Shown: in pieces, positions 3,250 to 24,863 of the stretch
Numbering within the stretch: position 1 is the stretch's first letter
Layout of the letters: the number at the start of each line of letters is the position of its first letter
Assembly (NCBI GenBank): GCA_947462945.1
Contig: CANHTE010000001.1
Location: 1-24,863, forward strand
Direction of reading: 5' to 3'
Length of the DNA stretch: 24,863 bases
Origin: Acetobacteraceae bacterium
GTDB lineage: Bacteria > Pseudomonadota > Alphaproteobacteria > Acetobacterales > Acetobacteraceae
The notes under the pieces: model-generated
What the model was told of the DNA's origin: nothing
Seen by the model: only the letters and a program-made list of their open reading frames with translations
Database searches by the model: none
Translations under genes and position numbers: made by a program

Positions 3250-3330
3250 ATGGCCTGGAAGACTCCCCGCATCGTTGAAGTGTCGCTCGCGCTCGAGATC
3301 AACAGCTACGCCTGCGCCGAAATCGGCTGA
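3250..3330 (+). CDS. pqqA: Coenzyme PQQ precursor peptide PqqA
   Basis: Ribosomally made substrate for pyrroloquinoline quinone. The 26-residue peptide begins MAWKTPRIVEVSLALE and ends ACAEIG. It carries the diagnostic Glu-x3-Tyr motif, Glu16 and Tyr20 (EINSY). In the known pathway PqqE, with PqqD as peptide chaperone, cross-links this Glu and Tyr, and the pair becomes the PQQ skeleton. A good Shine-Dalgarno (GGAAGGAAT) ends a few bases before the ATG. It is the first gene of a plus-strand pqqABCDE operon, 71 bp after the chemoreceptor stop. It is too short for default gene-length cutoffs and could easily be missed. Confidence 0.96.
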   Translation: MAWKTPRIVEVSLALEINSYACAEIG

Positions 3331-3364: not shown

Positions 3365-4291
3365 ATGTTGCGCGCCATCGTGCTGGGCGCGGGGGCCGGT
3401 GGCGGCTTTCCGCAATGGAATTCTGCGGGCCCCGGCTGCCGCCGTGCGCGGGCGGGCGATCAGGCCGCCAAGCCGCGCAGCCAGGCCTCCCTGGCGGTGA
3501 GTGCGGATGGCGAGCGGTGGCTGCTGCTCAATGCCTCGCCCGATTTGCGCGCCCAGATGGCCGCCACGCCGGCGTTGCATCCGCGCCCTGCCCCTTTGCG
3601 CAATTCCCCCATCGCGGCCATCGCGCTGACCGGGGCCGAGGTGGATACCATCGCGGGCCTGCTGAACCTGCGCGAACGGCAGCCTTTTCGGCTCTATGGC
3701 GCGCCTCAAAGCCTGGATGTGCTGGCGGCCAACCCGATTTTCCGCGCGCTCAACCCCGATTTCGTGACGCGCGAGGTGATGCCCCTGAACACCCCCTTCA
3801 CGCCCAAGGATGGCGCAGGGGAGGCGCTGGGCCTGCGCATCGAGGCCTATCCCGTGCCGGGCAAGGTTCCGCTTTTCGCCGAAGCCGGCCATGACCCCTC
3901 GCAGATGCCCGCCCTGCTGGAAGATGGCGAGGCGGTGGGCCTGGCCATCTCGGCCGGTGGGGCCGTGCTGCATTACATCCCCGGCTGCGCCATGATGACG
4001 CCGGCCCTGGCCGGGCGGCTGCGCGGCGCCGCCTGCGTGATGTTCGACGGCACGCTCTACACCGATGACGAGATGATCACGGCCGGCGCCGGCCCCAAGA
4101 CCGGCCAACGCATGGGCCATATGTGCATGACCCAGACCATGGCCGCCTTCGCGCCGCTGGGTGTTGCGCGGCGCATCTTCATCCATATCAACAACACCAA
4201 CCCCGCTTTGCTGGATGACAGCCCCGAGCGCGCCACCCTCACCGCCGCCGGCTGGGAGGTCGCGGAGGATGGCATGGAGATTTCACTGTGA
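3365..4291 (+). CDS. pqqB: PQQ biosynthesis protein PqqB
   Basis: Metallo-beta-lactamase-fold protein of the PQQ pathway, known as a hydroxylase acting on the Glu-Tyr-derived intermediate. The 308-residue protein begins MLRAIVLGAGAGGGFPQWN, the conserved PqqB N-terminus. It also carries LTGAEVDTIAGLLNLRE, MFDGTLYTDDEM, MGHMCM and IFIHINNTNP, all typical of the family. Length is as usual (about 300). The frame is open 30 codons further upstream, but that would run into pqqA and add an unconserved Arg/Ser-rich leader, so the ATG at 3365 is chosen. No clear Shine-Dalgarno precedes it because a hairpin occupies that space. The stop overlaps a GTG start of the following short reading frame (GTGA). 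Confidence 0.95.
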   Translation: MLRAIVLGAGAGGGFPQWNSAGPGCRRARAGDQAAKPRSQASLAVSADGERWLLLNASPDLRAQMAATPALHPRPAPLRNSPIAAIALTGAEVDTIAGLLNLRERQPFRLYGAPQSLDVLAANPIFRALNPDFVTREVMPLNTPFTPKDGAGEALGLRIEAYPVPGKVPLFAEAGHDPSQMPALLEDGEAVGLAISAGGAVLHYIPGCAMMTPALAGRLRGAACVMFDGTLYTDDEMITAGAGPKTGQRMGHMCMTQTMAAFAPLGVARRIFIHINNTNPALLDDSPERATLTAAGWEVAEDGMEISL

Positions 4292-4365
4292 GCCTGATGC
4301 CACCGGATGAGTTCGAGGCGGCGCTGTGCGCGATTGGCGCCGCCGCGGAGCGGCACAAGTCATGA
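4288..4365 (+). pseudogene. 25-codon duplicate of the pqqC 5' end, coupled to pqqB and pqqC
   Basis: A short frame starts with GTG overlapping the pqqB stop (GTGA) and ends with TGA overlapping the pqqC start (ATGA). GGAG lies 8 nt before the GTG. Its product contains PPDEFEAALCAIGA, nearly the same as APDEFEAALRAIGA at the start of PqqC, then diverges (AAERHKS, stop). At DNA level 4301-4342 matches 4378-4419 at 40 of 42 bases with a 77-bp offset, so the copies lie in different frames. This is a relic of a tandem duplication at the pqqC start. It may persist because it keeps ribosomes moving from pqqB to pqqC and supplies a GGAG for pqqC. Whether a peptide is made is unknown. Confidence 0.75.
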
Positions 4366-4419
4366 AGGCGCCGCTGGCACCGGATGAATTCGAGGCGGCG
4401 CTGCGCGCGATTGGCGCCG
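4301..4419 (+). repeat. Imperfect tandem duplication across the pqqC start (two 42-bp arms)
   Basis: Arms at 4301-4342 and 4378-4419 are identical except for two transitions (G/A in a Glu codon, T/C giving Cys or Arg). The 35 bases between the arms include 6 extra bases within the first copy's Ala run and the actual pqqC start codon. Because the period is 77 bp, not a multiple of three, the copies are read in different frames. Confidence 0.85.
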
Positions 4420-5087
4420 AAAGGTATCACATCCTGCACCCGTTCCATCACCTGCTGCACAACGGGAAGCTCAGCCGCGGCCAGGTGCAGGCCTGGGCGC
4501 TGAACCGCTATTACTATCAGGCCAGCATTCCAGCGAAGGACGCCTCCCTCCTCGCCCGCCTGCCCACCCCGGAATTGCGCCGCGAATGGCGCCGCCGGCT
4601 GGAGGATCATGATGGCGATGGCACCCAGCCGGGCGGCGTGGAACGCTGGCTGAAGCTCACCGATGGGCTGGGGCTGGACCGCGCCTATGTGATCTCGCTG
4701 CAAGGCATGCTGCCCGCCACGCGCTTCGCGGTGGACGCTTATGTGCGCTTCGTGCGGGAGATGAGTCTGCTGGAGGCCATCGCCTCCTCGCTGACGGAAA
4801 TGTTCTCGACGAACATCATCCAGCAGCGCGTGGCCGGCATGCTGCGCAATTATGATTTCGTGAGCGAGGAGACGCTGGCCTATTTCAAGCCGCGACTGAC
4901 CCAGGCGCCACAGGATGTGGATTTCGCGCTGGGTTACGTGAAGCAGCACGCCGATACCCGCGAAAAGCAGGAGCAATGCCTGGCCGCGCTCCGCTTCAAA
5001 TGTGATCTGCTCTGGGCGCAGCTGGATGCGCTGCATCTGGCCTATGTGGAGCCGCGCCTCGTCCCGCCCGGCGCCTTCCGGATATGA
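4362..5087 (+). CDS. pqqC: Pyrroloquinoline-quinone synthase PqqC
   Basis: Cofactorless oxidase that performs the last step of PQQ formation, an eight-electron oxidation and ring closure of AHQQ. The 241-residue all-helical protein shows family blocks HPFHHLLHNGKLSRGQVQAW, NRYYYQ, SIPAKDA, DHDGD, LTEMFSTNI and LRFKCDLLWAQLDALH. The ATG at 4362 gives a family-like N-terminus; a GTG at 4326 in frame would add an unconserved arginine-rich leader and is rejected. The ATG overlaps the stop of the preceding duplicate frame, with GGAG 11 nt upstream. The last codons overlap the pqqD ATG (ATGA), so translation is probably coupled. PqqC and PqqD are separate, not fused as in Methylobacterium. Confidence 0.96.
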   Translation: MKAPLAPDEFEAALRAIGAERYHILHPFHHLLHNGKLSRGQVQAWALNRYYYQASIPAKDASLLARLPTPELRREWRRRLEDHDGDGTQPGGVERWLKLTDGLGLDRAYVISLQGMLPATRFAVDAYVRFVREMSLLEAIASSLTEMFSTNIIQQRVAGMLRNYDFVSEETLAYFKPRLTQAPQDVDFALGYVKQHADTREKQEQCLAALRFKCDLLWAQLDALHLAYVEPRLVPPGAFRI

Positions 5088-20626: not shown

Positions 20627-21868
20627 TCACCCCGGCTGGCGCAACCAGTCCAGCAGCGGCCGCCAGAGCGCGGCCTCAGCCCCCTGCCCCGCCACCATGC
20701 CGATATGCCCGGCCTGGGCCAGGTGCACCGTGGCGCGCGGCAAGGCGGCGGCCAATGGCAGGGCCGAGGCTGGTGGCACGATGCGGTCCCGCGCGGGGAT
20801 CGCCAGGAAGGCGGGGCCGCGCCAATCGCAGGGCTTGACCGGCAGCCCGGCCACCGCCCATTCGCCCCGAACAGGGCTGTTGCGGCCATACCATTCGCCC
20901 AGCGCCTCACGCGCCACGGGGGCGGCCAGCGGCACGCCATCATTCAGCCAATCCTCCAGCACCACGAAGCGGCGCGCGCGCTCGGAATCCTGGTCCAGCC
21001 GGCCGAAGGCGCGGAATTTTTGGGGGATGCCGTAAGGGTCCATCATCGCGAACAGGCTTTGCAGCATGTCCACGCTGAGCGCCCCGGTGGGCTCCATCAG
21101 CGGCTCGAAGCCTGGGAGCAGCCGCGCGATGCCGGCCGCCTGCGGATCGGCCGCGAAATCCCAGGGGGTGGCCAGCAAGGCGAGCCCCGCCACGCGGTCC
21201 GGCCGGCGAAGGGCGGCGGCCAGCGCCAGCAACCCGCCCATGCAATATCCGGCCAGGATCAGCCCTTCAGGGGCCGCCATCAGCGCGCGTTCCAGCCGGC
21301 CGGCGATGTGATCGGTCAGGGTGAAGCGGCGCTCGATGGCCCCGGGCCAGCCCCAATCCAACAGCAGCGGGCGGACCCCCTGCCCGGCCAGAAAGCGCAT
21401 GAGCGAGGCGCCCGCATCCAGATCCAGCACCGTGGCGCGGTTCACCAGGGAGGGCACGAACAGCACCGGGCGCCCGGCCCCGCCAAAATCCAGCAGCCGG
21501 GCCGCGCCCTCCTGCCAGAGCACGGGGGGGTCGTTCAGCGCGCGCGCATGGGGGTGGCGGCGATAAGCGGCGAGGCCCCGCAGCAGCGCCCGATCCTCCC
21601 GCCAGAGGCGGCGCAGCACGGCGGCGCGAAAGGCTTCAGGGCTTGCGCCGAGGGGCGCGAGGCTTGCGGCGATCCGCGCGGCCTCCGCCTGGCCGGCCTT
21701 CGAGCGCGGCCAGCCGTTGTTCCAACTCGGCCAGCCGGGCCCCCAGGGCGGCGGATTGGCCAGCGGATTGGCCAGCGGATTCATCAGCGCCGCCAGGCCC
21801 CGGCTGGCGCCCAGCATGAGGTGCAGGTTCAACGGGCGCGGGCCGCGCCGCAGATGCGGGGGGCTCAT
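20627..21868 (-). CDS. phaC: PHA synthase PhaC-like (short, class III-type alpha/beta hydrolase)
   Basis: Predicted poly(3-hydroxyalkanoate) synthase that polymerises hydroxyacyl-CoA at the granule surface. The 413-residue protein is shorter than class I (about 600) and nearer to class III. The lipase-like box is GYCMGG with nucleophile Cys209. Catalytic Asp is in [10 protein letters not shown] (about 361) and His in QAGHIGMV (about 388). [26 protein letters not shown] and [19 protein letters not shown] are typical of synthases. The start at 21868 gives [10 protein letters not shown], which I recall in related proteins, but it overlaps the upstream gene by 233 nt; Met29 (21784) is an alternative that still overlaps. 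There is no convincing Shine-Dalgarno at either, so translation may be coupled. Confidence 0.85.
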
Positions 21869-23740: not shown

Positions 23741-23817
23741 TGGCAGGGGCGGGGGGTCTCGAACCCACAACCTCCGGTTTTGGAGACCGGCACTCTAGCC
23801 AATTGAGCTACGCCCCT
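23741..23817 (-). tRNA. tRNA-Trp (anticodon CCA)
   Basis: A full cloverleaf of 77 nt reads on the minus strand. The acceptor stem AGGGGCG pairs with CGCCCCT. The D arm is GCTC...GAGT. The anticodon stem CCGGT/ACCGG holds the loop CTCCAAA with anticodon CCA (complement of 23781-23783). The T arm contains GGTTCGAGACC. Discriminator G and a genomically encoded CCA end the gene. Placement between tuf and secE is the classic bacterial location of trpT. Confidence 0.97.

Positions 23818-23891: not shown

Positions 23892-24863
<972 letters not shown>

Follow-up and report, generated by a model that had tools for sequence, protein, structure and literature searches.

The MIRUs of senX3-regX3 are about 77 bp long. 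According to the description in PMC12548453, mycobacterial MIRUs are apparently mobile elements that insert at start codons and carry a reading frame coupled through a 4-nt overlap. Coupling of this kind by termination-reinitiation has been followed with reporters, which, as PMC10666635 presents them, show a need for overlaps or very short distances. The initial annotation of the locus studied here knew of no description of anything similar, which is too strong a statement given the mini-frames at start codons described for MIRU.

We analyzed a stretch of 24,863 nt from an Acetobacteraceae bacterium (contig CANHTE010000001.1), hereafter the window, in which pqqB (3365–4291, forward strand; NCBIfam TIGR02108, 367 bits) lies upstream of pqqC (4362–5087, forward strand, 241 aa). 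The window PqqC matches TIGR02111 over its full length (381 bits against a cut-off of 240, model positions 2–235 of 239) and aligns with the solved PqqC/D, PDB 5vrc, from residue 5. PqqD (TIGR03859) and PqqE (TIGR02109) were also identified by NCBIfam, and PqqB, PqqC, PqqD and PqqE are all intact. A frame 5' of pqqB (3250–3330), ending EINSYACAEIG, is one that we take to be pqqA-like. Elsewhere in the window, a tRNA gene (23744–23817, minus strand) adjoins an elongation factor Tu gene (23892–24842, minus strand) that runs into the contig end, and a perfect 12-bp tandem repeat of 2.6 copies lies at 21751–21781.

At the pqqB/pqqC junction the start of pqqC is present twice on the forward strand, as a direct repeat of 45 nt with 42 identical positions (93%), the first copy at 4298–4342 and the second at 4375–4419, spaced by 77 bp. 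The repeat had initially been given as 42 bp with 40 identical; its offset of 77 stands and its actual length is slightly greater. The repeat is real and chance is ruled out, since the self-match score of the window is 74 versus a maximum of 35 among 200 shuffles and 8 further genomes have the same architecture at this junction. The first copy lies in a mini-frame of 25 codons (4288–4365, forward strand, GTG to TGA) that has counterparts in 7 other genomes and encodes the 25-aa peptide MSLMPPDEFEAALCAIGAAAERHKS. It overlaps pqqB by GTGA (4288–4291, the pqqB TGA being 4289–4291) and pqqC by ATGA (4362–4365, the pqqC ATG starting at 4362, just 5' of the second copy). Stop and start codons overlap at both of its ends, which is the geometry of termination-reinitiation, and the 4 nt shared with the downstream gene are as in MIRU-like coupled inserts. 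Both copies encode the peptide PDEFEAAL(C/R)AIGA, in different frames. Inside the pqqB tail, 8 nt 5' of the GTG, stands a GGAG (4276–4279, forward strand) with an anti-SD energy of -6.4 kcal/mol, a value of -5 or better being reached at a quarter of the 476 window ATGs tested. The 25-codon frame, both overlaps and this GGAG had been reported initially, and all were found within 4276–4365. A second GGAG (4347–4350), 11 nt 5' of the pqqC ATG, is contained in a palindromic linker, GCCGC-GGA-GCGGC (4342–4354, forward strand); the initial annotation had neither this linker nor the other gene pairs at which it recurs.

We consider it probable that the arrangement arose when the stop-start junction of pqqB and pqqC was duplicated in tandem with a palindrome as the link, a duplication that would recreate coupling on both sides and leave the downstream gene expressed. 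Duplicating an overlap junction would recreate the overlap on each side when the unit is 2 modulo 3, and because the pqqC start is duplicated in a unit of 77 bp, the first copy would become a short frame running from the pqqB stop to the new pqqC start. Ribosomes arriving from pqqB would then, we infer, translate 25 codons, stop at the TGA and reinitiate at the overlapping ATG, with the GGAG of the linker helping reinitiation there. The mini-frame thus probably hands ribosomes from pqqB to pqqC with little presumed benefit or harm, its peptide is most likely a by-product, and the arrangement would persist because PqqC is still made. Since coupling needs overlaps or very short distances in the reporter data presented in PMC10666635, units of other lengths should cut PqqC off or, at 0 modulo 3, fuse with it.

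A match was found in 34 of 60 genomes, and we inspected the junctions of 30 loci. Nine genomes from three genera of Acetobacteraceae, the window included, carry a duplicated pqqB|pqqC junction: G000 (the window), G001, G005, G006, G011, G296, G362, G377 and G390. They comprise 5 of the 20 genomes with a close PqqC in the genus group of the window (21 searched; the remaining one, G014, has only a relative of 24% identity), 3 of 6 in a second genus group (9 searched) and 1 of 7 in a third (15 searched). G011 corresponds to the isolate Roseococcus suduntuyensis DSM 19979 (locus L051, NZ_JACIDJ010000006), G296 is apparently the same as L054, and the single-contig genome G006 has three copies and two mini-frames in series. 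The relay of stop and start codons is kept in 8 of the nine bearers and fused in frame in one, G001. The initial view that a tandem duplication of the pqqC start forms a relay is supported, survival because coupling was kept is possible, and recurrence in nine genomes gives no support to a unique structure or to merely recent debris.

A self-repeat scan of the region upstream of the conserved ERYH codons was run on three locus sets that overlap in genomes. Among 110 loci (7 without the anchor), 7 loci from 6 genomes scored at least 40, a level equaled by 0 of 200 shuffles; 4 of 39 loci in another set were positive, and none of 43 (1 without the anchor) after removal of one masked row. We dropped L241 (score 44) as a bearer, its match being to masked N, and excluded L216 (score 33) from the bearer count. 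In near relatives without the unit pqqC mostly starts at or near the pqqB stop, a few (e.g., L029) showing no overlap; judged from most of these relatives, the insertion point is a start codon or stop/start overlap.

The unit measures 77 bp in G000, G005, G006 (twice), G011, G296, G362 and G377, 80 bp in G390 and 78 bp in G001. All relay units at pqqB|pqqC (77 and 80) are 2 modulo 3, and for this reason the stop of the mini-frame meets the next start; this frame rule, like the anatomy and the recurrence, is directly observed. Together with the 78-bp fusion, these lengths fit the expectation from coupling. Outside the window, relay junctions overlap by 4 nt or by 1 nt (murC); in G005 the stop, a TAG, lies two bases 5' of the ATG, and the pqqC start of G362 is GTG. 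In G001 the first-copy frame has no stop and is fused to PqqC (MKPVSPEELEAELRAIGAAAKPHQGKEAPLTPDRLEAELRAIGAERYH). A second fused case, P0022, is known as a protein only, among 120 listed of 4348 scored proteins. N-termini of PqqC resembling the second copy occur, among the proteins listed, in P0012 (MKSPMAPDAF) and P0053 (MTSPMAPDAF), both known as protein only, as well as in the single-copy genome G194 (MTTPMSPDEL). PqqC of R. pinisoli (L008 and L040) and P0014 have a different, proline-rich N-terminal extension (MPDRPKAEPRPASPPGAKGALL).

Between the copies, the linker GCCGCGGAGCGG is identical in 7 of the 8 relay genomes and differs by one base in G005. All 8 relay genomes have in it a GGAG that lies 8 or 11 nt 5' of the pqqC start; the extra, first linker of G006 has GGAA and the fused G001 has GAAG. 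Variable columns number 1 of 12 in the last linkers of the 8 relay genomes versus 22 of 36 in the first-copy core (Fisher p = 0.002), or 2 of 12 versus 23 of 36 with the first linker of G006 added (Fisher p = 0.007), p values that are optimistic because the 12-nt block was picked after its conservation was seen. Two host origins of the linker were considered and rejected. The pqqB tail is an appealing source in G000 and G005, with an overall combined p of 0.29 (not significant) and only G005 exceeding all 383 background windows, and a continuation of pqqC (GAG CGG TAT CAC) is scored equally well by 19 to 454 of 500 shuffles. RNA at the junction is as stable as its shuffles (z = 0.00), giving no sign of a special structure there.

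The linker also occurs with a duplicated junction at tautomerase|M20 peptidase, murG|murC, flgI|flgJ-like (rod-binding) and LUD|Smr, with units of 77, 83, 98 and 92 bp, respectively, all 2 modulo 3. Gene identities were assigned by Pfam, and those of murG, murC and flgI by domain and context. In G006, the tautomerase|M20 peptidase (dapE-like) pair has the mini-frame MANNTADPIPLAQALMRCRPAAERPQP, closed by a stop and followed by MTAAADPIPLAQALIRCR; its first codon was set at GTG by choice, and it overlaps the end of the upstream gene by 11 nt. The LUD|Smr mini-frame of G167 (MNPAQAVIMPLAAPRHGPRRVHVILLKDEAA, then a stop) comes with a duplicated part that is the tail of the upstream gene. At murG|murC the relay is found in two genomes, G009 and G015, and the mini-frame of G009 (MRALPLSIGTIHFVGSARRGAALEGSR, then a stop) has TGATG at both ends. 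The flgI|rod-binding junction of G362 holds two mini-frames of 33 codons each.

Across 397 genomes, a sample of the family, the pattern GCCGCGGAGCGGN(3-9)CATGA was found at 25 places in 23 genomes, compared with 6 for the control. Six of the 25 are pqqC; two of the other 19 carry strong duplication, and the remaining 17 show no convincing duplication, with scores up to 34. An exact 13-mer scan of 12 chosen genomes placed the linker core at 65 places versus 228 for the reversed control, by which we rejected an abundant genomic repeat, and added the G009 and G362 cases. Of the 42 non-pqq linker places evaluated (3 further places being left out), 4 reached a flanking-repeat score of at least 70 and 2 (one an array) a score of 40–69; among 2339 random positions in the fetched loci the counts were 0 and 10. 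Before the 13-mer scan, two of the four high scorers were known (G006, G167) and two were not (G009, G362). The linker accompanies duplication at four other kinds of junction; only its 12–13 nt recur, and their number is not enriched. One weak match to the linker, C56 in G003, has the look of an intergenic chance hit.

A period scan of 947,341 bases of fetched loci, many chosen for the linker and hence non-random, returned at a threshold of 30 of 36 units of 98, 77, 77, 77, 80, 77, 92, 56, 89, 83 and 83 bp as well as one of 54, and all but this last are 2 modulo 3; array rows L253, L304 and L305 and the repeat listing L011 were dropped, and weaker pqqC copies fell below the threshold. In R. 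thiosulfatophilus the 56-bp unit forms a relay between pqqC and pqqD, with a different palindrome; the 54-bp unit lies within a pqqC|pqqD mini-frame, and the 89-bp unit is a duplicated gene end without relay. A scan for mini-frames between two overlaps gave 150 candidates, by eye mostly frames inside other genes.

Several further arrangements were observed along the way. At pqqC|pqqD, coupled mini-frames number two of 19 codons in R. thiosulfatophilus (L057:2747-2862), one of 38 codons in Roseococcus sp. SYP-B2431 (L043:2711-2827) and one of 19 codons in R. pinisoli (L040:2711-2770), and a second palindrome, CGCCTCCGGGC..GCCCTCCGGCG, is shared by the strains of L057 and L043. A 37-codon mini-frame 5' of a polysaccharide deacetylase gene in G006 (L282:995-1108) has a C-terminal peptide, ATDSRLRAYALRRSGA, resembling that of the pqqC|pqqD mini-frames. 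G390 carries a 43-codon mini-frame with a GCCGCGGAGCGGC linker (L312, minus strand, 406–537) at a junction that, by eye, we take to be dctQ|dctM, and its places C75 and C120 have longer linker surroundings similar to L312. Tandem arrays of the linker palindrome, with a 23–24-bp period and 2 to 6 exact units, occur in G011 (L322, L324), G390 (L304, L305) and G296 (L316). A short tandem repeat array adjoins the linker motif at the end of a gene that is histidine kinase-like by eye (L253 of G065, near 1358), and in G002 (L147, near 1482) a gene end coding for AAAERAPAIV, stop included, recurs at a distance of 89 bp, with a similar hairpin between the copies and no relay.

The bearers are scattered among their relatives on trees of pqqB, of pqqC and of both joined. 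The AU test rejects a single clade of all bearers for pqqB+pqqC (p = 7.7e-8, 41 rows) and for pqqB (p = 1e-11); on pqqC alone (p = 0.057) it does not. Across 9 genomes, the first and the last copy vary together (Mantel r = 0.59, p = 0.0002), which means either that the duplications are lineage-specific or that the copies convert each other. Linker distances correlate neither with those of the host pqqC (r = 0.18, p = 0.24) nor with those of the first copy (r = 0.10, p = 0.29); the linker of G000 is at a distance of 0.09 from that of G377, in another genus group, versus 0.27 from that of its closest relative, G006. The scattered bearers and a linker that does not follow the host tree suggest that the linker may be mobile. 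Since the lineages have the linker in common, it is unlikely that each of them re-created the same unit by chance. The presence of the linker at other gene pairs favors more than one event, and such a history, in which the linker passed from genome to genome or from gene to gene, appears likely. The linker may be mobile, may have traveled by recombination at the repeats or may be a remnant of one old event. As a tentative wider picture, dispersed tiny palindromic linkers may enter stop/start overlaps in Acetobacteraceae and leave a 40–90-bp junction duplication, each insertion building a coupled mini-cistron from host sequence, with selection for the downstream gene acting as a filter on the frame (2 modulo 3) and with pqqB/pqqC as a recurrent site.

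It is rather unlikely that the pattern goes back, with nothing mobile, to one ancient duplication in an ancestor shared by the three genera, followed by many losses through recombination between the copies and by gene conversion that homogenized them. Such a history would suit the likeness of the bearers' linkers, the capacity of tandem copies to contract and convert, and the three copies of G006. The structure requires 5 changes on the 34-row tree; on the 41-row tree, in which 13 of 38 inner branches are weak and the root is unsure, it requires 7 changes by parsimony, against one gain and 12 losses for the ancient duplication, which also leaves unexplained the same linker and duplicated junctions at the M20 peptidase, murC, flgI and Smr.

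Selection on the mini-frame itself, either to tune the PqqB:PqqC ratio or for a working peptide (the ratio and a peptide had been raised initially), seems improbable. The open frame and the succession of stop and start are kept in 8 of 9 genomes, and first copies vary less at non-wobble (11 of 24) than at wobble columns (11 of 12; p = 0.011), as such selection would have it. Last copies, however, vary at 15 of 36 columns overall, fewer than first copies do, and appear more constrained at non-wobble columns (5 of 24), a difference that is not significant (p = 0.12). The mini-frame is moreover absent from sister genomes and fused into PqqC in G001, and a conserved mini-frame peptide was rejected, first copies being relaxed. 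It is hardly credible that the structure stems from faulty assembly or sequencing, or that it is an ordinary pqqC start hit by a frameshift, even for a window whose draft genome is only 57% complete, in 442 contigs, since the same structure stands in different sequence versions in the isolate L051 and the single-contig G006, and since most near relatives without the unit start pqqC where the first copy lies.

Under the duplication that we favor, copying a junction offers a route for new mini-genes inside operons without breaking them, because a duplicated overlapping stop/start junction gives a frame whose two ends are coupled by construction. At pqqB|pqqC nature provides a series (no extra copy, one, two, and an in-frame fusion) that, with murG|murC and the remaining pairs, opens both termination-reinitiation and the origin of small ORFs to direct tests. 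It also calls for caution in annotation, as pqqC starts can be displaced by such units.

Among the matches listed in our literature search, none described a relay in the pqq operon or in Roseococcus. The overlap geometry is that of native termination-reinitiation pairs at ATGA or TGATG, as given in PMC10666635 and PMC6728339; those pairs have one overlap, whereas the interposed mini-frame here makes two in series. In the engineered bicistronic design, as outlined in PMC12548453, a short first ORF likewise delivers ribosomes to a coupled gene, but the pqqB/pqqC relay is natural, sits inside an operon and is apparently derived by duplication. The enterobacterial RU-1/2/3 are likewise small stem-loop repeats that carry reading frames within genes, and PMC2759123 describes them with terminal inverted repeats and TA target duplications, unlike the direct repeats of 40–93 nt that flank or include the linker in the eight cases measured here. 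MIRU is the nearest known kind, as it too places a mini-frame at a start codon or overlap and couples it by 4 nt. Here, by contrast, the unit has a body copied from the start of the downstream gene or the tail of the upstream one, only the palindromic linker is common to the loci, and the hosts are Acetobacteraceae. We keep the pqqB/pqqC element apart from MIRU proper because its body is largely host-derived and its linker only possibly mobile; likened by description rather than by sequence homology, it would work as MIRU does while being built mainly from host sequence.
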